From Haloferax mucosum ATCC BAA-1512 (GTDB lineage: Archaea; Halobacteriota; Halobacteria; Halobacteriales; Haloferacaceae), in NCBI RefSeq assembly GCF_000337815.1, contig NZ_AOLN01000006.1, forward strand, positions 62,001-126,000: 64,000 nucleotides of DNA, given 5' to 3'. The translations under genes were made by a program, and so were the position numbers. Position 1 is the first letter of the stretch; every line of letters begins with the position of its first letter. The notes beneath the pieces were generated by a model. It saw only the letters and a list, made by a program, of their open reading frames with translations, made no database searches and was not told where the DNA came from. Below, in pieces: positions 11,044 through 40,855 of the stretch.

Positions 11044-13377
11044 TTATACCTGTGTTTCGTCTTTCGTGTCCGAGCCGGTCGCGCTTTGGCTGTCGGAGAC
11101 GACGACGGTCACTTCGACTAGCCCTCTGTTTTGATTCCCGGACAGTTGAGCTGTAACTGTCCTCCCCTCTGCTCCGGTGAGACTGAACGAAGCGGTATCA
11201 GTCAGCACGCCACCGACCCGAACAAAGACCGTCCCGGTTCGAAGGTCGCCGTTGGCATCGTCCGGAGAGAACGCCACTGTGACTGTTTGGACGTTCCCAG
11301 AGTTCCCCGCCTCGAAGACCTGTATATCTGTGATGTCCACGGTCGGCGCGTCGTTCCCGCCGCCTGTATCTTGGACCGTCACCGTCGTCGTCGTCGTGTC
11401 GGTGGCTCCGTCATCGTCGGTTACGGTCAGTCTCACGGTGACGTCTGTGTCACCGGAAACACTCGACGGCGCGTCGAACGTCGGCGTCTCGGAACCGGCG
11501 TTCGAGATGCTCGCACCACCGGTCGGGTCGTTCGTAATCGCCCAACTGTAGCTATCGACCGTTCCGTCGTCATCGGAACTCGACGACCCGTCGAGTTGGA
11601 TGGACCCACCTTCGCTGACGGTGTACGGACCGCCCGCTCTCGCGGTCGGCGGGGAGTTACCGTCTGGGGGCGCGTCGTTGACTCTGAACGTGTACGTCTT
11701 CGAATCGACCAACCCGTTCGGCAGGCGATAGCTCACGCGCGCGGTGACCCACTCGTCTACCATGTTCACGTTCGAACCGTCGTCGAAGAATTCGTACACG
11801 TAGAATTTTGCCGATTCGCCGCTTCCGACGACCGGGTTCGGCCCGGCGATGTTACCATCTTCGTCGAGGTCGGTCGCAATTCCGTCGTCCGGGACGGTCA
11901 CGTATTCGGACTGGCTAATCAGGTAATCGACACGCCCGTCTCCGCTCGGCGATTCGACGTAGAACTCTGTTTCGCCCGGGTCGTTGTCGCCTTGTCCGAC
12001 TCGGTCGGAGAGTCCGTTGATTCGGTCGTCGTGGGGGTTGACGACTACGTCGAGTACCTCTACCGAGTCGGTGCCGACGTTCTGTAGCGAGAATTCGATG
12101 CCGCCGCGCGTGGAGCCGGAATCGTCGCCGTCACGTCCGACCGCGTCGTTCTCGTAGAGCAGACCGCCGACGCCGCCGCCACTCCCACCAGACGAGACCG
12201 TCACCGATACGCTGGCGTCCTGCCGCGTGGCTGAGGCGAACGTGTCGTCGTCGAAGCTCCCGAGCACGGCGGCCGTGCCCGCAGATTGCCCCGTCACGGT
12301 CACTTCCACACGCCCGTCTGCGTCTGTCGTCGCGGAATCCGTCGAGAGCGATACCGCGGCGCTACTCGCGGAGAAGTTCACAGAGACGCCCGAGACGGGG
12401 TTGTTGTAGCGGTCTCTCACTTCGAAGGTCACGGTCTCAGACCCACCCGAATCGACCGTCTCCGACGACGGCCCGGTCGTGGTGAGGTAGTGCGGTGACG
12501 GCGTTTCGATGCCGGAACCGACACCGACGTTACCGATTCGGAGGTCGTAGGTCGCACCGCGTTCCATCACGAAGACGACGCTCTCGTCGGTCGGTCCCTC
12601 GCGGACCGCGTGTACGTAGGCGTCGTTCGACGTGTCTCCGGACCCGTCTAACTCCTCGGCGTCGGTCAGAATCGTCCGCCAATCATCCGCTGAGAGCTTC
12701 GTCGGCACGGTAATCGTCACGTTGTTCGCCGAGGCGTTGTTCGTCACGCTGACGGTTCGCGTCGCCCGACTCACGGCTTGGGCGTCGATTGTCGCGCTCC
12801 CGACGCCGTTTTCGGAGTAGTTACCGGCGAGGAGAACGAGCGAGATAGTCCGCCCGTCAACGAGCGATTGCCCGGAGAGCGTCCCGTTGTACCCGTTGTC
12901 GAAGCGGTTGTACGCGACCGTGTTTTCGTACACCGTGGTCGGCGCGTTCTGCATGACGTTGTAGCCCGGTCGGTATTCGAGCGCCTTCGTGGTGAACGAC
13001 AGTCGATTGTCGGTGACGTAGTCACTCGTCTCGGCTTCGTTCGTACTGACGTTCGAGACGGCGAACGTTCCGAGCGACCGCGTTTGCAACGTCCCCGTTG
13101 CCGGCCCGGGGTTGACAAAGAGCGTCCGACTGGGATAGCGCGTCCCGAGCGAGACGGTCGTCGGCGTCGGCGTCGATTTTGCCGCGCTCTCGACGACCGC
13201 TCCCCGAAGGGTAACGAACTCGTTGTGAACGTCTTGGTTGTGTTGGAACTCGACCTGTTCGTTTTGGTTCGGGACGACGGTCGCTTGGTACATCGACATC
13301 GAGATGATGATGATGCCGAACAGCAGTACTGCTCCGATTTGAACAGTAACTGCCCGCTCGTCGCCCCGAAAGTCCAT
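11044..13377 (-). CDS. Large pilin-like surface protein with Big_1-like and PKD domains
   Basis: The 777-residue protein starts MDFRGDERAVTVQIGAVL, a pilin-type signal: a charged N-terminus, then a hydrophobic helix that would stay in the membrane or a filament core. Residues up to about 270 form a domain shared with the two proteins at 32.5-36.5 kb, including the line ITVPTKLSADDWRTIL and ATYDLRIGNVGVG. A Big_1-type Ig domain follows (SETVTFEVRDRYNNPVSGV). The C-terminal half holds a cell-surface PKD domain from ARAGGPYTVSEGG to VTVRLTVTDDDGATD, then another beta domain. A longer upstream frame is not used, because it would run through the neighbouring gene. Confidence 0.85.
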   Translation of the reverse strand: MDFRGDERAVTVQIGAVLLFGIIIISMSMYQATVVPNQNEQVEFQHNQDVHNEFVTLRGAVVESAAKSTPTPTTVSLGTRYPSRTLFVNPGPATGTLQTRSLGTFAVSNVSTNEAETSDYVTDNRLSFTTKALEYRPGYNVMQNAPTTVYENTVAYNRFDNGYNGTLSGQSLVDGRTISLVLLAGNYSENGVGSATIDAQAVSRATRTVSVTNNASANNVTITVPTKLSADDWRTILTDAEELDGSGDTSNDAYVHAVREGPTDESVVFVMERGATYDLRIGNVGVGSGIETPSPHYLTTTGPSSETVDSGGSETVTFEVRDRYNNPVSGVSVNFSASSAAVSLSTDSATTDADGRVEVTVTGQSAGTAAVLGSFDDDTFASATRQDASVSVTVSSGGSGGGVGGLLYENDAVGRDGDDSGSTRGGIEFSLQNVGTDSVEVLDVVVNPHDDRINGLSDRVGQGDNDPGETEFYVESPSGDGRVDYLISQSEYVTVPDDGIATDLDEDGNIAGPNPVVGSGESAKFYVYEFFDDGSNVNMVDEWVTARVSYRLPNGLVDSKTYTFRVNDAPPDGNSPPTARAGGPYTVSEGGSIQLDGSSSSDDDGTVDSYSWAITNDPTGGASISNAGSETPTFDAPSSVSGDTDVTVRLTVTDDDGATDTTTTTVTVQDTGGGNDAPTVDITDIQVFEAGNSGNVQTVTVAFSPDDANGDLRTGTVFVRVGGVLTDTASFSLTGAEGRTVTAQLSGNQNRGLVEVTVVVSDSQSATGSDTKDETQV

Positions 13378-31829: not shown

Positions 31830-32201
31830 TCACCGGCCGAGCGCCGCCAGAATCTCCTCGGGAACGCTGAGCAGTCCGTACCAGACGAGCAGGACGACGA
31901 GAACCGTATAGCCGACCGAGATGAAGAAATCCTTGGCGAGACGGCCGGTCGTGTACGGTTCGGCCTCCGACGAGATCGCATCGACAGCACCCTTGTGGAG
32001 CAACACGAAGCCGACGACGTTCGTCAGCCAGTACCCCGCGATGACACCGGGGAGGAACCACTGCCGCGAGATGAGGCTCACGGCGACTCCGAACGCGTAG
32101 GCGAGTGGCAGGTTGACGACGAGGTCGTTCCACCACGAAAGCGGGGAGAGAACGAAGCCGATGACGGCGAGAAGACCACCTTTGACGCGCCGTGCTTCCA
32201 T
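31830..32201 (-). CDS. Small membrane protein, function unknown
   Basis: The 123-residue protein has three or four membrane helices: VKGGLLAVIGFVLSPLSWW, LPLAYAFGVAVSLI, FLPGVIAGYWLTNVVGFVLL and FFISVGYTVLVVLLVWYGLL. Short charged loops separate them. The start MEARRVKGG follows an in-frame MLSVAVP ten codons upstream, which is less like a membrane-protein start. I recognise no family motif. It stands alone between the secreted protein and the pilus operon. Confidence 0.75.
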   Translation of the reverse strand: MEARRVKGGLLAVIGFVLSPLSWWNDLVVNLPLAYAFGVAVSLISRQWFLPGVIAGYWLTNVVGFVLLHKGAVDAISSEAEPYTTGRLAKDFFISVGYTVLVVLLVWYGLLSVPEEILAALGR

Positions 32202-32456
32202 CCCAATAGATGGAACGGCCACCGACAACAAGATTGTGACATAGTGTCACGACTATCTCGGAAGATGTCGTATCGGCGGCGTTCGAGTCACGACAAGCGG
32301 TGCGGCACGGAAAGGGTGACAGCACGGAATGAGGCGAAGCGGAGTGGCAACACCGAGTGAGCCGAATGGAGCACTGAAACGAGACGGAGCAAAAAACACC
32401 GGTTGTGGCCGGTGGCTGGACTGTTCAGGAGTGCAGTTCAGGTCTACTTCCCGAGG

Positions 32457-34298
32457 CTAGTTCGAATCGGTGGAATTGTTGGTGCCGTCGTCTTCCCAGA
32501 GCGTGACGAGGATAACCGCGTCCTGGAGGTCGTACGCTCTGCTCCATTGATTCGTCGTCCCGAGTTCGAACAGGAAAATGGCCTGGTTGTCGTCCAGTGC
32601 CATCGTCTGTCCGTCCTCGCTGATATACGGCTCGACGAACTCTTCGGCGTCGTCTTGACCGTTGTACCCTTTGATTTCGGGGACTGGGTCACCGTTTCGA
32701 AGGACGGCGACCTGTCCGTGGTCGACCGACGAGTCCGCCGTGACGTAGCCGTCGGCGGACGCGACGATATGGACACCATCCCCGGCGTTTCCGGCCGCGC
32801 TGAACGACCGCTTTTGGCCGTCGTTGACGTTCTCCCATCCCGCAGGCGAGTGAGTGTCGTCGCCGACGACGAACGTCACTTCGACGGGAACGTCTCTGTT
32901 GCCGCTCTTGATGGCGCTTCCGAGCAGTTCGAAGTCGCCGTTGAAGTCTACAGCGGTGACAACGGACCCGTCGTCGATGACGAAGTCGTCTTCGTTGACC
33001 GGAGCGGAGTCGTCTTCGGGGGCAGGCGTCGGGTCTGGCTCGGGTGTTGGCGCGGGCGTCGGGTCAGGGTCGGGCGTCGGGTCCGGACTCGGCGTCGGCG
33101 TCACGTCATCGACGTTTCTGACGTTGTAGCTGTTTTCGAACCCGCGGACTTCGAGCGGGATAGTCACCGTCGAACCGGGACCGTTTGCGCCGTCGAGCGC
33201 GATGGTGACGGTGTCCGACTCGATGTTGGTGATGCCGTCAGGAGCGGTGTACGTGAACTGGGCGCGGCCCGATTCGTCGGTGACGGCCGACCCGCCGTCA
33301 AGTGGCGTCACGGTGCCGCCGAGGGGCGTCGTCGATTGCGCCGTCAACCTCGCACCGGCGACGGGTGCACCGTATCGGTCGAATGCGCGGACGACGAGAG
33401 TTTCACTGCCGCCGGCGGGAACCGCCGAGTCTTCGCCCTGAACCGCGACGGCGTAGGTCGCCGGGTCGGGGTCGAGCGCCTCGCCGACGCCGAGTCGGGC
33501 GATGCGGAAGTCGTACTGGACACCGGCGTCGAGTTGGATGGTGACGAGCGCGTGGTCACCGCTCGGCGTGTACGAGGCGACCTGTGCGTGGGGTTCGTCG
33601 GCCATGAGGTCGGCCCACGCGTCTTCGGGCAGGGACGTCGGCACCGAGATGCGTATCGGGTCGGTCGCGTTGTAGACCGGAAGCGACTCCGAGCGAACCG
33701 AGACCGGTGCGAGCGAAACCGTCTCGCCCGCGGTCGTGTGACCGTCGAGACCGCCTTCGAAGAAGACGAGCGTGACGGTGGTTCCGCTGACGAGCGACTG
33801 GCGCTGGACGACTGTGTTGCCGTCGTCTTCGAGGTACGAGACGCCGCTTTCGATGAACAACTTCGCCTCGTCGCGTTCGGCGTAGTCGGGGTGGTAGACG
33901 ATTGCGTTCGTCGTGTACGTCTGGGTCGAGCCGTTCCAGAAGACCGATTCGGGACCGCTTGCCGAGACGCCGGTAAGCGTGACCGAGTCGGCACCGTCGG
34001 CGCGGAACGTGCCGGTTCTGTCCGGTGGTGAGACCACGAGGTACCGTTCGGGGTACGAGACGCCGGTATCGACGGCGACGCGGCCGTCAGAGTCCAAGCC
34101 CGAGGCGCGGAATATTTCGGCGTCGAGCGACGTGAGGTCGGACGAGACGCTGGCGCTGTGGTCCGCTTCGTCGCCGGCGGTCCAGACGGGCGTTCCCGCG
34201 AGTTGGACCATCGCAACGACCGAGACGACGAGTCCGAACGCGAGGATAACGCTGACGATTTCGGAGACGCCGCGGTCGGTCGGGGTGCGTTGTGTCAT
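32457..34298 (-). CDS. Large pilin-like surface protein 2 (Big_1-like domain, Pro/Thr linker)
   Basis: The 613-residue protein starts MTQRTPTDRGVSEIVSVIL. The RGVS-plus-hydrophobic-helix pattern is the haloarchaeal type IV pilin signal, cleaved by prepilin peptidase before the helix. A domain of about 260 residues is shared with the 34302 and 11044 proteins (ISVPTSLPEDAWADLM, VQYDFRIARLGVGE). A Big_1-type Ig domain follows near residue 310 (GGSETLVVRAFDRYGAPVAGA). Then comes a DPTPAP linker (412-445) and a C-terminal domain with no recognised fold. Last gene of the pilus operon, three bases after the previous one. Confidence 0.82.
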   Translation of the reverse strand: MTQRTPTDRGVSEIVSVILAFGLVVSVVAMVQLAGTPVWTAGDEADHSASVSSDLTSLDAEIFRASGLDSDGRVAVDTGVSYPERYLVVSPPDRTGTFRADGADSVTLTGVSASGPESVFWNGSTQTYTTNAIVYHPDYAERDEAKLFIESGVSYLEDDGNTVVQRQSLVSGTTVTLVFFEGGLDGHTTAGETVSLAPVSVRSESLPVYNATDPIRISVPTSLPEDAWADLMADEPHAQVASYTPSGDHALVTIQLDAGVQYDFRIARLGVGEALDPDPATYAVAVQGEDSAVPAGGSETLVVRAFDRYGAPVAGARLTAQSTTPLGGTVTPLDGGSAVTDESGRAQFTYTAPDGITNIESDTVTIALDGANGPGSTVTIPLEVRGFENSYNVRNVDDVTPTPSPDPTPDPDPTPAPTPEPDPTPAPEDDSAPVNEDDFVIDDGSVVTAVDFNGDFELLGSAIKSGNRDVPVEVTFVVGDDTHSPAGWENVNDGQKRSFSAAGNAGDGVHIVASADGYVTADSSVDHGQVAVLRNGDPVPEIKGYNGQDDAEEFVEPYISEDGQTMALDDNQAIFLFELGTTNQWSRAYDLQDAVILVTLWEDDGTNNSTDSN

Positions 34299-34301
34299 GA
34301 T

Positions 34302-36512
34302 TCAGACCTCCACGATTGGTGCATTCAGTTCGGGGCTGTCCCGGTCTTCGATCGACGAATCGGGTAGGTAGATGCGCGTCGCCGCGGTGATGGTGATGTC
34401 CCGTTTCGCGGAGATGGCTGGCTGGCGGCCGCTTACCATCCCGGAATCGGACGTGATGACGACGTTGGCGTTGTTGCTCCCCTTCGAGGAGGCGATGTTG
34501 GCACCGACGACGTAGATGTCGGCTTCGGCGTCGATTTCGACGCCCCCGTCGCCGAGGATGACGACGCCGTTGAGGTTGACGCCGCCGGTCGCGGATTCGA
34601 CGTGCAGGCCGCGGTTATCCTTGACGCCGGACACGGCGGCACCCATCAGGTCAACGCCGTCTTCGCCCGCGATTGTCACGTCACCGTTGCCGCTGATGTC
34701 GGCGCTTCGCGCGCTGACGAAGCCGTCGGTCGATTCGATGGAAATCTCTTGGTTGGACTCGATTGCGGTGATGCCGGCGTTGTCGATGTCGATGTCGCCG
34801 TCCGCCGAGACGATGACGTCGCCCTTGTCGCCCTGATTGATGGACGCGCCCGAGAGGTCGATTTCGTCACCGGTCACTTCGATGTCGTCTCCCTTGACCG
34901 CGGTGAGCGCCACGCCGACGGCCTCGACGGTCCCGGAGTTGCCATCGACCGTGAGGTCGCTGTTCGACCCGGTCGTGACGGCATCGACGTGGAGCGAGAC
35001 GCCGTCGCCTTCGAGCGTGATGTCGCCGTCGGCGACGATGGGACCGACGCTCGGCGGGACGACGAGCCTGTCGGAACCGGCGTCGTAGACTACGTCGTCG
35101 CCGCTTCCGGTGTCGTACACGCGGTAGTCGGCACCGTCGAACTCGCCGTTTCCGTTCACGTCTGCGTAGACGAATCCGGGGTCATCGACGGCCGCGACGA
35201 GCCCGCGGATTGGGTCGGTGATGCCGCCTTCGCGGAGGTGCACGTCGAAGGTCACGCGGTCAACGTTGGTTCCCGAACTGTCCTCGACGACGATGTCGAA
35301 CTGGTCTGTGACGACGCCGTCGAGACTGCTCGTGGCGGCGTAGGTGAAGGTCGCGCGACCGTCGGCGTCGGTCGTCGTCGAGATTGCGCCGGTGTCGCGC
35401 GCTTCGACGCGCCCGCTTTCGGCGGTCAGTCCGGGACTCGCCTTGACGACCGCGTTGGACACGGGGTTGTTCTGCGCGTCGCGGACTTCGACGACGACGC
35501 GGTGGGTCGCACCCGGCGGGACGACGGCGTTGTCGCCTTCGACATCGACGATGTAGGCTGGCTGGGATTGCGACCCGGGCACGTCGATACCGACGCGAGA
35601 GAGACGCAAGTCGTACGTCTTTCCGGGTTCGAGTTCGACGGTCAGCGTGTTGTAGTCCGTCCCGTCCGCATAGGAGATGCTCCGGACGTTCGGTTCGTCG
35701 GCGAGCATCGACCGCCACGTGTCTTCCGAGAGGCGCGTCGGCACGGAGATGGTAATCGGCGTCCCCGTGTCGGTGACGGTGATGTAGTCCGTTCCGGCGC
35801 TCACCGGGGTGACACTGAACGTTCTCGCCTCGCTCGTCGCGGTGTCGATGTCGCCTTCGAGGAAGACGAGCGAAACTTTCTGGCCGTCGATAAGCGACTG
35901 TGTCGCGCCGACTTCACTGCTGGCGTAGGCGGTGTACTGGGCGGAGCCTTCGTGGACGAGCGCGGGCTCGCTGTCGAGGTAGCGGTAGTCCGGGTGGTAG
36001 CGGAACTGCTGTGTGTCGAAGGTGTGTTCCGACCCGTCCCAGTAGGTGCCAGTCTCGCCGGTCGCAACCGCGTTGGAGATACTCGCCGTGGCGGAATCGG
36101 TCGTTTTCAGACTACCGGACCCGGAGCCGGGCGAGACGAACAACGCGCGAGTCGGGTAGTTCACACCGGCGTCGATAGTCGCACGCGTTTGCCGACCGTC
36201 GGTCGCCTTCGAGACGCTCTCGTCGAACGCGGCGAAGTCGGACTCGACCGCGGTGAGGTGTTCGAACTCGGTCTGTTTGTTCCACGCGGGGACCGCCGAG
36301 ACCTGCACCATGGCGATGAGGGAGACCACGAGGGCGAACGCGAGCATCGTGCCGAGGATGGCCGACGTACCGCGGGAGTCGCCGCGGAGCCGAGTTCCGC
36401 CCGTGGTGTCGCGGCGAGAGTTCGAGCGACCGCGGACGAGGCCCGCGAGTGACTCGGGCGATACGCGCCGAAGGGGCGACAGGTACCGTTTGGGAGGGGA
36501 GTGTTGTGACAT
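34302..36512 (-). CDS. Large pilin-like surface protein 1 with predicted beta-solenoid
   Basis: This 736-residue protein has an N-terminal extension of about 40 residues and then the pilin-type stretch RGTSAILGTMLAFALVV. The shared domain follows (ISVPTRLSEDTWRSML, TYDLRLSRVGID), then a Big_1-like domain (HRVVVEVRDAQNNPVSNAVV). The last 250 residues (about 483-736) repeat short units such as GDVIVSADGDIDID and NGDVTIAGEDGVDLMGAAV. These are typical of a right-handed beta-helix. Such solenoids in bacteria are adhesin stalks. It starts four bases after the PilC-like stop, in the same operon. Confidence 0.82.
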   Translation of the reverse strand: MSQHSPPKRYLSPLRRVSPESLAGLVRGRSNSRRDTTGGTRLRGDSRGTSAILGTMLAFALVVSLIAMVQVSAVPAWNKQTEFEHLTAVESDFAAFDESVSKATDGRQTRATIDAGVNYPTRALFVSPGSGSGSLKTTDSATASISNAVATGETGTYWDGSEHTFDTQQFRYHPDYRYLDSEPALVHEGSAQYTAYASSEVGATQSLIDGQKVSLVFLEGDIDTATSEARTFSVTPVSAGTDYITVTDTGTPITISVPTRLSEDTWRSMLADEPNVRSISYADGTDYNTLTVELEPGKTYDLRLSRVGIDVPGSQSQPAYIVDVEGDNAVVPPGATHRVVVEVRDAQNNPVSNAVVKASPGLTAESGRVEARDTGAISTTTDADGRATFTYAATSSLDGVVTDQFDIVVEDSSGTNVDRVTFDVHLREGGITDPIRGLVAAVDDPGFVYADVNGNGEFDGADYRVYDTGSGDDVVYDAGSDRLVVPPSVGPIVADGDITLEGDGVSLHVDAVTTGSNSDLTVDGNSGTVEAVGVALTAVKGDDIEVTGDEIDLSGASINQGDKGDVIVSADGDIDIDNAGITAIESNQEISIESTDGFVSARSADISGNGDVTIAGEDGVDLMGAAVSGVKDNRGLHVESATGGVNLNGVVILGDGGVEIDAEADIYVVGANIASSKGSNNANVVITSDSGMVSGRQPAISAKRDITITAATRIYLPDSSIEDRDSPELNAPIVEV

Positions 36513-36516
36513 GACG

Positions 36517-38643
36517 TTACACCAGTGCGAAGGCGACGAGCGCCAACGCGGCCAGCCCGAGGGCGTATTTGAGGCCGCTGAGGGCGCTGTTGTCGGCGAG
36601 TTTGCCGGCGAGGAGTCCGCTCCCGACCGCCTGAATGAGCGCGGAGTGGAAAAACACCAAGTGGAAGTTGGCAAGTGGGACCGCCGAGATTCCCATCGGG
36701 AGTTCCTGTCCGGCCGCGCCGGCCTGCGGGGTGGACATCTCGGCGAGCGGGCCGAGATAACTCGCGCCGAGCATCAAGATGACGAACAGGTACACGAAGT
36801 AGCCGATGACGACGATAGCGATGTACGACCCCATCGCGCGGCGGCGGGACTTTTCGAGTTTGTATCGGTTGCGCGTGTCTTCGGCGGCGACACTAAGCAC
36901 ACGCGAGAGGTCGCCGCTGGTCTGGCCGCCGCTGGCGATGAGCCGGACGACCCGCGAAAGTTGCGGAACCTTCAGGCGGGTGGCGAAGGCCATAAGCGCC
37001 GCGTGGGCGTCGTGATTCCAGCGGATGTCGTTGCGGAGCGCGCGGAGTTCGTCCGCGAGCGCGCCGCTCGACCAGCGGGAGACGAGCGCGAGCGCCTCGA
37101 CCAGCGAGATACCCATCTGGTTGGCGCTCGAAAGTAGGTTGAGGGTGTCGGGGAAACGCCGTTCGAGGGTGCGTTCGCGTCGGATTCGAAGCTCGTGGAA
37201 GACCATGAGCGGAATCGTGACGATGCCGAAGGGGACGACCACGAGCCAGACCGTCGTGTTGTACGGATTCGCAAGCATGGCGTCAACAGTCGGCGTCGCC
37301 AGCCCGAGTGCGACGGCGGCGACGGGCGCGGCGAGCGCGATGGGGACCGTGATGACGGCCGAGAGATACGGCTGGCGTCGCATGATGTCCATCGGGTCAC
37401 CGATGAGTGTTCGAAGGTCGTACACGACGTTGGCGCGGCGGTAGTCGTCGAGTCGAGCATCGACGTAGCCGCCGTCGGAAGCGAGTTTTTCGTCGCTCCA
37501 GCGCGCTTCGCGGGCGCGTTGAATCTCGCGGCGCATGACGCCGACGAAGTCGGTGATGACCGTGCGAATCTCCTGGAGGACGGTTACGTCGTGTTCCGTC
37601 TCGACTGTGTCCTGCGTGTACGGCGACGAGAGCACGTCGATAAGAAGCAAGAACAGCGCCATCCCGAGCGGGAAGATGAGGTAGTTCAGCGCGTACAGTT
37701 GGACGAGCGTGTTCCCGCCGAGGAAACTGATGACCATCAGCGTGACGATGAGGAGAAGTGGGGCGGCGACGAACGCCGCGACGAACACCTCGGAGAGCAT
37801 CGACAGCGTCTCGATGAAGTCTTCCTGCTCGTCGCGCGCTTCTTCGAGGTAGGTTGACGACTCGCGGTCTAAGAACGCGGTGACGTCGCCACCGGAGTCG
37901 AGGACCGAAAGCAGGTCGTCGAGGAACTGCTCGAAGTTCATCGAAGGGGTGAGGTTCCGCGAGTTTCGAAGCGCCGTAAACAGGTCGTTTCCGAACAGTT
38001 CCATGTCGCGGGCGATAAGCTCGAACTCGTGGGACACTTCGCCGTAGTCGGAGGCGTCAGCCATCGAGCGGATGACTTCGAGGAAGCTCATGCCGCCGTG
38101 GCTGAGGGCGTACATGTAGATGATGGCGTGCGGCAGGAGGATGTCGATACTCCGGCCGCGCATCTTCGCGCGACTCTTGGGGATGTAGTAGCGGGCGTAG
38201 TAGGTCCCAGCACCGAACAGTCCGCCGAAGAGCAGGGCCAAGATGCCGCCAACAATGAAGGCCTTGTAGGGCGCGAGGGCCGCGAGGACGCCGTTTGCGA
38301 CGCCGAAGTTCACCGGGCTAGAAGCGGCCGCTAACGCGCCCGCTTGGGCGAGAACGAACGTGAGAGCGACGCCGACGAGCGCGCCAATCGCGGCGGTGAT
38401 GAGCGACAGTGTGACCGACTGGGTGAGATAGCGGTCGTAGGTCGTCCCGACGCGCGTCTGGTTCAGCCACCGCTGGAGGTCGCGGTGACCCGACGGATGG
38501 CGCTTGAAGTACGTTCGAACGTAGCCGTAGCGCTTGCGGAGGCGCGCTATCTCCTCGGGCGATTCGTCGAGATACTCCCGCGGGAAGTACTGCTCGACCT
38601 CGTAGTCGGGGAGCGGAATCGACGCGGAGGAATCAGCGGACAT
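36517..38643 (-). CDS. Type II/IV pilus assembly platform protein (TadC/PilC type)
   Basis: The 708-residue membrane protein is the inner-membrane platform of an archaeal type IV pilus machine. Two T2SSF-type domains are present. The first contains LSHGGMSFLEVIRSMADASDYGEVSHEFELI near residue 180, the second SANQMGISLVEALALVSRWS near residue 510 and further ASGGQTSGDLSRVLSVAAEDTRNRYKLEKSRRRAM. About nine membrane helices surround them. The first 11 bases overlap the end of the ATPase gene, so the pair is coupled. PilB-PilC pairs of this kind in Haloferax drive adhesive pili. Confidence 0.93.
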   Translation of the reverse strand: MSADSSASIPLPDYEVEQYFPREYLDESPEEIARLRKRYGYVRTYFKRHPSGHRDLQRWLNQTRVGTTYDRYLTQSVTLSLITAAIGALVGVALTFVLAQAGALAAASSPVNFGVANGVLAALAPYKAFIVGGILALLFGGLFGAGTYYARYYIPKSRAKMRGRSIDILLPHAIIYMYALSHGGMSFLEVIRSMADASDYGEVSHEFELIARDMELFGNDLFTALRNSRNLTPSMNFEQFLDDLLSVLDSGGDVTAFLDRESSTYLEEARDEQEDFIETLSMLSEVFVAAFVAAPLLLIVTLMVISFLGGNTLVQLYALNYLIFPLGMALFLLLIDVLSSPYTQDTVETEHDVTVLQEIRTVITDFVGVMRREIQRAREARWSDEKLASDGGYVDARLDDYRRANVVYDLRTLIGDPMDIMRRQPYLSAVITVPIALAAPVAAVALGLATPTVDAMLANPYNTTVWLVVVPFGIVTIPLMVFHELRIRRERTLERRFPDTLNLLSSANQMGISLVEALALVSRWSSGALADELRALRNDIRWNHDAHAALMAFATRLKVPQLSRVVRLIASGGQTSGDLSRVLSVAAEDTRNRYKLEKSRRRAMGSYIAIVVIGYFVYLFVILMLGASYLGPLAEMSTPQAGAAGQELPMGISAVPLANFHLVFFHSALIQAVGSGLLAGKLADNSALSGLKYALGLAALALVAFALV

Positions 38644-40855
38644 CGTCGTCCTCCGATCGTCTTTCAGTCTCGGCGTCGTCGGTCACTGAGCCGTTAGCCA
38701 CAGCGTCGTCAGTCGAAGCATCGTCAATCGTAGCGCCGCCGGTCATCGCATCATCGGCGGACGCGTCGGCGTCCCCCTCCGCAGTGTGGCCATTAACGTC
38801 GGCGAGGTCGCCGTACCCGTCACCCGGGTCAGCGGCCGAGTCGTCGTCCAAGTCGATGTCGAACAGCTCAGCGAGTTGCCGCTCGGTCTCGGCCGAGACT
38901 TCGATTTCGTCGTCGTCGAGTTCGGCGGTGCTGTCGCCGTGTTTCCCGTCTTGGGAGTCGTCACGGTCGGCACTGCGCTCGTGGCTGTCGCTGGCGTCTC
39001 CGTCAGCGTCGTCAGCGTCGGCGTCGTCGTCAACGGGGACGACCGAGGTCTCCGCGTAGACGTGCGCGAGAAGCCCCTCGCGGTCACGTTCGAAGCGTCG
39101 AATCATCGCCGCAACTTGCCGGTAGTCGTCGATTCCGGCGGCGGCAATGTAGCGAAGCACGTCGGCGCGAACGTCGAGTTCGTACTGTAGTTCGGCTTTG
39201 GTCCAACCGCGTTCGTCCGCGATTTCACCGAGCACGGCGGAGTCGGCGAGTTGCTCGTGCGTGTCGGTGCCGGGGTCCCGTTTGAAGACGTCGCGGAGTT
39301 CGACCTCGCCGTCTTCATCGACGCCGACGATTTCCGTGACACCGATGTTTCTGCGGGTCCGGTCGCCGTCGAGGTGAATCTGTTTTTGCACCGAGATGAT
39401 GTCGAGGTCCGACAGCATCTGTGCGGGGACGCCGAGCGGTTCGTTGCGCATCCGGTGAACCACGCCTTGGGCGGAGTCGGCGTGGAACGTCGTGTACGCG
39501 GTGTGGCCCGTAGCGATGGAATGGAAGAACGTCAGTGCGACGCGCTCTTCAGTGCGAATCTCACCGACAAGCAGGTACTCGGGGCGCTGTCTGAGCGCGG
39601 CCTGCAAGAGCGCGTACATCGAGACCTCGCCGCGGCCGTCGGCGGTGAACGTGTCGCGGGTAACCGACTGAACCCAGTTGTCGTGCGGGAGCGTGATTTC
39701 GCGCGTGTCCTCGATGGAGACCACTTTCGCGTGGCCGGGGACGAAAAACGAGATGGCGTTCATCGAGGTGGTCTTGCCCGACCCCGTCCCGCCCGCGAAG
39801 ACGAGCGACCGGTTGTTCTCGATGGCGAGCCAGAAGTACGCCATCTGCTCGACGCTGAAGGTGTTCCAGCGCACGAGATCGACCGGCGACAGCGGCACGT
39901 CGGAGAACTTCCGGATGGTAAAATTCGACCCTCGGGTGGCGATGTCGGACCCGAGCGTCAACTGGATGCGAGAGCCGTCCGGAAGGCTGGCATCGACGAG
40001 CGGGTCAGAGACCGTCACCTGCTTGCCTGCGCGCTGTGCAAGGCGAATGGTGAACGACGAGAGGTCGCCGTCGTCGAAGACGACGTTCGTCGGCATGTCG
40101 CGGTAGACGCCGTGGAAGATGTAGACCGGCACGTCGTCGCCGTCACACGAAATATCCTCGATTGCGGGGTCGCGCATCAGCGGGTCGATACGGCCGTAGT
40201 GGATGAAATCGCGGAAGAGATAGTAGTATAATTTCCAGAGTGAGCCTTCTTCGACCGTCGCGGCGTGTTCGGAGATGATTTCGCGCGCTTCCTCGTCGAA
40301 GAGGTCTTCGCGGTCGCCGTCGGTGTCGAGGTCGCGGTACAACAGGCTGTTTCGGAGAATCTTCGTCAGGTCGTCGCGGACGAACGACTCGAAGTTGTCG
40401 AGTATCGGTTCGCTCACGTGGTACTGGTACTCTCGGTTCGACTCGTCGTACAAGAGGGAGACGAACGCGAACGGTTTGTTCACCCAGTAGTGCTCGATGG
40501 TTTCAGTCCCGTCGAGGAACGAGAAGTCGAAGAACTGCTCTTCGATGAACGCGTCGTCCGGGGCGGGCGCAAAGGCCGTCTCCGCGTCGATACTAGCGAA
40601 GTACGCCTTCACCTCGCGGATGACCGCCTCGCGGAGGGTCTCAGGCCGTTCTTCGTCCGCGTCGCGGGCGTCTTCGTCGTCGGGAGGCCCGTACACGATA
40701 CGGTCCGAGACCGCAACGGGGAGTTCGCTCGTCCGCTCGGCCACCGCTTCGGAACCGGTCGTCGGGACCAACTCCGTGGACCCCGAGCCGTCCGCTCGGA
40801 CTGCTTCCTCACCGTCTTGGTGATCAGTTTGTCTGTTCTTGTCAGGAGTTGCCAT
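38633..40855 (-). CDS. Type IV pilus/secretion ATPase (PilB/TadA type)
   Basis: The 740-residue hexameric ATPase powers filament assembly. Walker A GGTGSGKTT is near residue 355, the Asp box is VVSIEDTREITLPH, Walker B LLVGEIRTEER is near 430, and the His box is HTAYTTFHADS. The N-terminal 120 residues are disordered and acidic. After the ATPase domain (about residue 600) is a long Asp/Ser/Ala-rich tail of about 130 residues, which is unusual. It is the first gene of the four-gene pilus operon, with a TATA-like GTATTC at 40879-40884 on the minus strand at leaderless distance. Confidence 0.94.
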   Translation of the reverse strand: MATPDKNRQTDHQDGEEAVRADGSGSTELVPTTGSEAVAERTSELPVAVSDRIVYGPPDDEDARDADEERPETLREAVIREVKAYFASIDAETAFAPAPDDAFIEEQFFDFSFLDGTETIEHYWVNKPFAFVSLLYDESNREYQYHVSEPILDNFESFVRDDLTKILRNSLLYRDLDTDGDREDLFDEEAREIISEHAATVEEGSLWKLYYYLFRDFIHYGRIDPLMRDPAIEDISCDGDDVPVYIFHGVYRDMPTNVVFDDGDLSSFTIRLAQRAGKQVTVSDPLVDASLPDGSRIQLTLGSDIATRGSNFTIRKFSDVPLSPVDLVRWNTFSVEQMAYFWLAIENNRSLVFAGGTGSGKTTSMNAISFFVPGHAKVVSIEDTREITLPHDNWVQSVTRDTFTADGRGEVSMYALLQAALRQRPEYLLVGEIRTEERVALTFFHSIATGHTAYTTFHADSAQGVVHRMRNEPLGVPAQMLSDLDIISVQKQIHLDGDRTRRNIGVTEIVGVDEDGEVELRDVFKRDPGTDTHEQLADSAVLGEIADERGWTKAELQYELDVRADVLRYIAAAGIDDYRQVAAMIRRFERDREGLLAHVYAETSVVPVDDDADADDADGDASDSHERSADRDDSQDGKHGDSTAELDDDEIEVSAETERQLAELFDIDLDDDSAADPGDGYGDLADVNGHTAEGDADASADDAMTGGATIDDASTDDAVANGSVTDDAETERRSEDDDVR

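Follow-up and report, generated by a model that had tools for sequence, protein, structure and literature searches.

The locus described here lies in a window of 64,000 nucleotides from Haloferax mucosum ATCC BAA-1512, the window being the whole stretch of DNA that was analysed. Open reading frame calls and direct reading of the DNA place at 32457-40855 a minus-strand unit of four genes, running from PilB through PilC and LP2 to LP1:

38633..40855, minus strand: PilB-type assembly ATPase, 740 aa (Pfam T2SSE 113 bits, PilB3_C 48, PilB3_N 31)
36517..38643, minus strand: PilC-type membrane platform, 708 aa (two T2SSF stretches, Pfam 124 bits)
34302..36512, minus strand: LP2, predicted large modular pilin, 736 aa (ATG read from the DNA; class III signal SRG-TSAILGTMLAFALVVS)
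36201..36395, minus strand: end of the LP2 signal peptide and long pilin helix, about residues 40-104 (predicted helix 48-104)
35577..36200, minus strand: LP2 DUF7289 pilin domain, about residues 105-312 (Pfam 18.9 bits; 35% identity to LP1)
35223..35576, minus strand: LP2 Ig (Big_1-like) domain, about residues 313-430 (VIA Z 11-12)
34305..35180, minus strand: predicted LP2 C-terminal right-handed beta-helix, about residues 445-736 (VIA Z 17)
32457..34298, minus strand: LP1, predicted large modular pilin, 613 aa (ATG start; class III signal DRG-VSEIVSVILAFGLVVS)
33474..34298, minus strand: LP1 pilin helix and DUF7289 domain, about residues 1-275 (Pfam 34 bits; predicted helix 9-68)
33135..33473, minus strand: LP1 Ig (Big_1-like) domain, about residues 276-388 (VIA Z 11.9 / 11.0)
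32988..33134, minus strand: LP1 Pro/Thr/Asp linker, about residues 389-437 (low pLDDT)
32487..32987, minus strand: LP1 C-terminal beta domain, about residues 438-604 (AlphaFold model)

An earlier note on this DNA had described four same-strand genes that abut or overlap, and its coordinates match the DNA. PilB and PilC share 11 bases (38633-38643), the PilC stop is separated from the LP2 ATG by 4 bases (taa-cgtc-atg), and the LP2 stop from the LP1 ATG by 3 (tga-atc-atg). Membership of both LP1 and LP2 in the PilB-PilC operon is supported. A fifth operon gene was considered and rejected: the distance to the next conserved ORF downstream (31830-32231) is about 226 bases in this genome and about 900 in H. 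gibbonsii.

Both large proteins carry the type IV pilin-like signal that the note had ascribed to them. The class III signal scan located a cleavage motif at R9-G10 in LP1 (DRG-VSEIVSVIL) and at R47-G48 in LP2 (SRG-TSAILGTML), in both cases with a basic residue plus Gly/Ala ahead of the hydrophobic helix. In the AlphaFold models (mean pLDDT 78 for LP1 and 82 for LP2), the predicted N-terminal helices are 57-60 residues long and begin at the cleavage site, spanning residues 9-68 in LP1 and 48-104, directly at R47-G48, in LP2. An RG or RA site is found in all 57 of the tabulated operon LPs, and the genome encodes one prepilin peptidase gene (Peptidase_A24); the absence of a peptidase site, which would have spoken against the note, is thus not what we see. 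Five ORFs of the window were positive in the scan, three of them DUF7289-type proteins, and the same scan, applied to the first 60 residues of 1,798 ORFs from Markov-simulated DNA, returned no class III signal. In Pfam, Pilin_N (PF07790) matches 6 of 32 operon LPs and neither LP1 nor LP2 of the window.

The remainder of the two proteins is modular. DUF7289 (PF23960) scores 34 bits in LP1, above the Pfam cut-off of 27, and 18.9 bits in LP2, below it; the alignment of the two proteins has 35% identity (E 2e-63). The Pfam matches to Big_1 (21 and 20.3 bits) both fall under the cut-off of 34.9, and an Ig domain at the equivalent place in the two LPs is supported by fold comparison, with VIA Z of 11-12 for LP2 to Ig domains of glycosidases, intimin, InvE and S-layer proteins, and for LP1 of 11.9 to S-layer SbsC and phage Chi neck and 11.0 to intimin. 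The common domain and Big_1-type domain that the note saw in both proteins correspond to DUF7289 and to this Ig domain. Their C-termini are indeed unlike: LP2 has a predicted beta-helix at its end, which matches Sf6/P22 tailspikes and GH28/GH87 enzymes with VIA Z 17 across some 270 residues, and LP1 has a different beta domain there. The VIA comparison bears on the Ig domains and on the beta-helix of LP2, and barely probes the DUF7289 domain and the LP1 C-terminus. An LP profile gave no sequence match against solved structures, and Foldseek searches with whole LP models returned multi-Ig chains at low TM-scores only. Clustering of the C-terminal parts merged most LPs because these parts still included the Ig domain, and we therefore claim no count of module types. 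By fold comparison, the pilin module is joined in each protein to a C-terminal domain that is not specific to pili (Ig in LP1 and LP2, beta-helix in LP2).

Other pilus loci of the genome encode bare DUF7289 pilins (233 and 282 aa), and LP1 and LP2 can accordingly be seen as pilins onto which extra modules were grafted. The note held that haloarchaeal pilins are normally small, yet large ones exist: arCOG02911 proteins of 250-550 aa (PMC4858521) and, in the same genome, a 696-aa DUF7289-vWA protein.

The four-gene order is kept in all 14 other Haloferax genomes searched, a check that the note had proposed, and the arrangement is therefore not due to chance. The Haloferax LP1 and LP2 derive from a tandem duplication. 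On a wider scale, 40 of 46 PilC loci of the haloarchaeal type have PilB-PilC-LP, as against none of 33 of the methanogen/ANME type. The operon-linked LPs lie on one side of a branch that separates them from orphan homologs (support 99/98; all 200 bootstrap trees). PilC and LP divergence is correlated (r 0.32, 2/2000 permutations), as shared species history would also make it.

Homologs living consistently without the ATPase and platform would have told against the note, and this applies to the deeper paralogs only, many of which are orphans; the operon-linked LPs form a clade of their own. We rejected the orphans as a refutation of the linkage: they fall outside the operon clade, and most occupy a conserved site of their own next to HMG-CoA synthase and TatD. 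That LP1 and LP2 are membrane-anchored surface proteins merely adjoining pilB and pilC is scarcely credible: engine-less orphan homologs are common, but this reading is at odds with the 3-4-base gaps, the kept order and the strict clade-level linkage. The same window holds a further homolog that the note had overlooked and that is no part of the operon:

about 11047..13377, minus strand: third, unlinked homolog, about 777 aa, with pilin signal, LP-type N-domain, Big_1 and PKD, outside the operon clade

Among 11 Haloferax species, PilB is 85-89% identical across its core and PilC 80-84%. Conservation falls from this engine (80-89%) to the LP2 beta-helix (41-75%) and the LP1 C-terminus (0-75%), as expected for exposed binding parts. 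The LP1 linker is mostly missing from several Haloferax species, and the C-terminal beta domain of LP1 is entirely missing in two.

An engine adjoining two large pilins with adhesin-like ends suggests a machine dedicated to putting sticky proteins on the cell surface, and we consider it probable that haloarchaea have at this locus a dedicated display system of the type IV filament type, with LP1 and LP2 as its modular pilins. In each, signal, long helix and beta domain would make up a full DUF7289 pilin module, to which an Ig spacer and a surface module are added, the beta-helix in LP2 and another beta domain in LP1. The LP signals would be cleaved by PibD, whose gene lies elsewhere in the genome; the adjacent PilB ATPase and PilC platform would pull the cleaved LPs from the membrane and stack them via their helices, and the C-terminal modules would project clear of the S-layer and bind a surface, a sugar or another cell, most probably from the end of a fibre that is short or contains PilA. 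The term adhesin is putative, and is suggested by the resemblance of predicted folds. The LP2 beta-helix might instead degrade or modify a polysaccharide, since phage tailspikes, a phage depolymerase and GH28/GH87 enzymes are among its top matches by fold. However, beta-helices are common to many non-enzymes, identity to these matches is 6-12%, and one relative matches Fil_haemagg_2, an adhesin repeat; we regard such an enzymatic display as quite improbable.

A T2SSE ATPase and a T2SSF platform encoded together identify, by Pfam, an engine of the PilB-PilC kind. The PilB3_N score of its PilB is 31 bits, against 168 for the genome's own separate PilB3 gene. The presence of PilB3_N and PilB3_C in the window PilB is suggestive of clade 2, and the pair may, by elimination, be PilB5-C5. 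Several further PilB-PilC pairs are carried by the genome and could handle LP1 and LP2 instead; such pairs are known to serve pilins encoded elsewhere (PMC4858521, PMC6491452).

The signal scan and a Pfam Pilin_N search of the genome detected no small pilin within either the operon or the window; the latter revealed six PilA-type genes, all outside the window. The LPs are nearly the sole class III candidates in the operon loci, matches inside PilB and PilC aside. The signal scan misses variants such as DA-VSPVIG, and might therefore have passed over a small, weakly conserved pilin close to the operon. It is conceivable, if doubtful, that the giant modular pilins are the sole substrates of the machine, LP1 and LP2 forming a short two-component pseudopilus with no small major pilin, a display device and not a shaft. 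We hold equally tentatively that they are accessory minor pilins starting or capping PilA-shaft filaments, the adjacent engine being one of several that build such pili. PilB3-C3 of H. volcanii makes PilA pili from an operon that encodes no pilin (PMC4858521, PMC6491452), PilA-type genes are present, and over the first 14 H-domain residues the operon LPs outside Haloferax are nearer PilA (mean 7.45/14) than the orphans (4.16). The Haloferax LP H-domains have, however, moved away from PilA (3.58/14 matching positions), though the assembly of PilA pili depends critically on this domain (PMC4371748).

The engine could also set LP1 and LP2 into a non-filamentous or very short S-layer complex similar to the Sulfolobus bindosome, which seems to us unlikely. 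The window PilB resembles BasE (E 7e-58) and PilC BasF (E 2e-11), both below model cut-offs, the Bas system handles pilin-signal proteins at least four times the size of a pilin with no appendage seen (PMC4187195, PMC4371748), and the LP operon yielded no small pilin. But PilB matches the archaellum motor model far better (E 7e-114) and has PilB3 domains, Pfam gives the LPs no solute-binding domain, DUF7289 is a pilin domain in its own right, which sets the LPs apart from bindosome cargo, and Bas includes three small pilins.

The survey of modular pilins relied on a bacterial signature (PMC8179133), and we found no description of archaeal ones in the literature searched. The locus, its haloarchaeal relatives and the vWA-bearing DUF7289 protein suggest that archaea too graft functional modules onto pilins. 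LP1 and LP2 offer a concrete, testable substrate pair for an uncharacterised PilB-PilC engine of Haloferax, a genus with working genetics, and the locus bears on the question of whether every engine works with pilins of its own or PilA serves them all.

Known systems share parts of this organisation. The 2016 census of Makarova, Koonin and Albers described arCOG02911 as a variable-length minor pilin of euryarchaeal type IV pili, of about 250-550 aa, all-beta and Ig-like, with a class III signal, prone to duplication and present in clade 2 and 4C pilus loci (PMC4858521). DUF7289 has the same kind of distribution in the genome studied and, judging from shared distribution and description rather than from a profile look-up, is probably arCOG02911. 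In the literature searched, DUF7289 found no mention and arCOG02911 appears in one paper alone. LP1 and LP2 differ from arCOG02911 in their length (613 and 736 aa) and in a separate Ig domain and C-terminal module. In bacterial modular pilins such as Streptococcus sanguinis PilB, with vWA, lectin or beta-solenoid (ComZ) modules, the module is likewise grafted C-terminal to the pilin module and is expected at the filament tip (PMC8179133). Those pilins have the IPR012902 methylation motif, whereas the LPs, with an archaeal signal, DUF7289 and no small pilin found in their operon, gave no N_methyl family in a Pfam scan up to E 1; we therefore see them as acting like bacterial-type modular pilins and do not class them as members. 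With Sulfolobus BasEF the locus shares an ATPase and platform, which BasEF needs to surface very large pilin-signal proteins (PMC4187195), but Bas cargo is a sugar-binding protein and not a pilin, and small pilins accompany it. The engine is of the same type as H. volcanii PilB3-PilC3 (PMC6491452), from which it differs in having LP2 and LP1 in its own operon.

The four genes adjoin on one strand, as the earlier note had claimed; it is the minus strand:

38633-40855, minus strand: PilB, the ATPase, with T2SSE and PilB3-like N- and C-terminal domains (Pfam)
36517-38643, minus strand: PilC, the membrane platform, with two T2SSF domains (Pfam), overlapping PilB by 11 bases
34302-36512, minus strand: LP2, a large modular pilin with an ATG start, 4 bases past PilC
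32457-34298, minus strand: LP1, the second large modular pilin, 3 bases past LP2

Just downstream of LP1, at a variable gap, lies a gene for a hydrophobic 133-aa protein (31833-32231, minus strand), which is 81-85% conserved across the Haloferax loci shown and for which no Pfam family was found.

Both large proteins indeed carry the pilin-like signal ascribed to them: a hydrophobic stretch preceded by an RG site, which lies near the start of LP1 and behind a 47-residue leader in LP2. In the AlphaFold models a helix begins exactly at this site (residues 9-68 of LP1, mean pLDDT 78; residues 48-104 of LP2, mean pLDDT 82), and a simple scan for class III-type sites gave no match among 1,798 simulated ORFs. 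A single prepilin peptidase gene (PibD) is present in the genome. At mature position +3, the 24 operon LPs of Haloferax have Glu in 12 and Ala in 12; wherever the sequence was read, the Glu form was LP1 and the Ala form LP2. This split could point to an order of assembly, much as a missing Glu does for certain bacterial tip pilins.

Once matches within PilB and PilC are set aside, almost every class III candidate at the operon loci is an LP. Since the simple scan misses some real PilA genes having DA instead of RA, the better evidence for the absence of a small pilin here is the Pfam search of the genome, which found no Pilin_N match within the window. Its six strongest Pilin_N matches are PilA-like, the PilA-type set being encoded outside the window.

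Of the domains said to be common to the two proteins, DUF7289 (PF23960) and a Big_1-like domain are present in each, but Big_1 in both and DUF7289 in LP2 fall under the curated cut-off. By fold comparison, LP1 and LP2 alike have an Ig domain where one was expected, and the proteins align at 35% identity (E 2e-63). At Z 10-12, these domains resemble the Ig domains of intimin, InvE, FdeC, S-layer proteins, complement and glycosidases. The C-termini are unlike, as was noted from sequence: LP2 residues 439-736 resemble right-handed beta-helices (Z close to 17 across some 270 residues), namely the phage Sf6 and P22 tailspikes and GH28/GH87 enzymes, whereas in LP1 the Ig domain is followed by a Pro/Thr/Asp linker and another predicted beta domain.

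Two other pilus loci of the genome encode near-bare DUF7289 pilins (233 and 282 aa), and the PilB4-like locus L134 a 696-aa protein in which DUF7289 precedes vWA (L134:13229-15316, minus strand; G000:C18), the layout of the Streptococcus sanguinis modular pilin PilB. DUF7289, found nearly alone in the former and joined to vWA in the latter, is thus the pilin module of LP1 and LP2, and the other domains are grafts. Another candidate modular pilin comes from the same PilB4-like locus: a DUF7266 protein of 453 aa (L134:11089-12447, plus strand) whose signal is pilin-like and which also has a PKD domain.

Across 11 Haloferax species, identity is 85-89% for the PilB core, 80-84% for PilC, 54-86% for the helix, pilin and Ig parts of LP2, 41-75% for its beta-helix and 0-75% for the LP1 C-terminus, which is missing in two. 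In H. larsenii and H. marinum, LP1 (412 and 430 aa; L143:12390-13628 and L146:12365-13657) ends without linker and C-terminal domain, so that the graft can be lost. This gradient from engine to modules fits exposed binding parts, though it does not prove binding.

The search for the gene order proposed in the earlier note recovered PilB-PilC-LP2-LP1 in 14/14 other Haloferax genomes searched. A PilC scan yielded 79 loci. An LP directly follows PilC in 40 of the 46 haloarchaeal-type loci (L139-L181, L196, L206, L217), with two LPs in the 11 Haloferax and one elsewhere, and in 0/33 of the more distant methanogen/ANME-type loci. The downstream LP is missing at L167, L168, L174, L176, L177 and L178; L174 and L178 have a divergent LP upstream instead, and L178 terminates inside PilC.

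Haloglomus halophilum and Halorarius halobius each carry two tandem copies of the whole PilB-PilC-LP unit (L159, L161). A second PilB-PilC pair, with a smaller ATPase and no LP, lies directly upstream of PilB-PilC-LP at L150-L154, L157, L158 and L162 (Natronomonas, Haloglomus, Halorarius and two MAGs), placing two engines side by side.

The tie to ATPase and platform does not extend to every homolog. Many orphans exist, LP homologs in other genera being mostly stand-alone, and the window itself holds one:

about 11047-13377, minus strand: third LP-type homolog, about 777 aa, with pilin signal, Big_1 and PKD, and no engine

It is flanked by HMG-CoA synthase and TatD. Among 43 orphan cases, a few of which come from one and the same genome, HMG-CoA synthase is a neighbour in 36 and TatD in 32, with one or both in most; the third homolog is an old, widespread orphan giant pilin, found at this location in most of the haloarchaeal genomes examined. 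Operon-linked LPs nevertheless split from the orphans. In a maximum-likelihood tree of 92 N-domains, all 47 from operon-linked proteins fall on one side of a branch (support 99/98; 200/200 bootstrap trees), which argues for an old, stable association with the engine. Haloferax LP1 and LP2 are sister groups, a topology indicating that a tandem duplication within the Haloferax lineage produced them.

The sequence features, the linkage and the predicted folds of the LPs are the steps established here. We infer their processing, export via their own engine, location and adhesion: PibD would cut the LP1 and LP2 signals, the adjacent PilB-PilC engine would pull the cut pilins out, and the LP helices would pack with the C-terminal modules pointing outward. 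Bacterial modular pilins with a bulky graft are confined by it to the filament tip (PMC8179133). Outside Haloferax the H-domain of the LPs resembles that of PilA (7.45 of 14 positions alike), but within Haloferax it does not (3.58 of 14); these sequence data mildly favour separate assembly in Haloferax, perhaps with a shaft of LPs only, over a PilA shaft.

DUF7289 is probably the arCOG02911 family, described in the 2016 census as a variable-length, Ig-like, duplication-prone minor pilin of euryarchaeal pilus loci (PMC4858521). The engine is also of a known type, the window pair being, by elimination, probably PilB5-C5; clade 2 includes PilB3, PilB4 and PilB5 (PMC6491452). An engine that copes with very large pilin-signal proteins has a precedent in the Sulfolobus bindosome (PMC4187195). 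As far as our tools show, four things are new beside these systems: a reading of archaeal pilins as modular, the strict linkage of LPs to one engine, an operon without a detectable small pilin, and the LP duplication in Haloferax.
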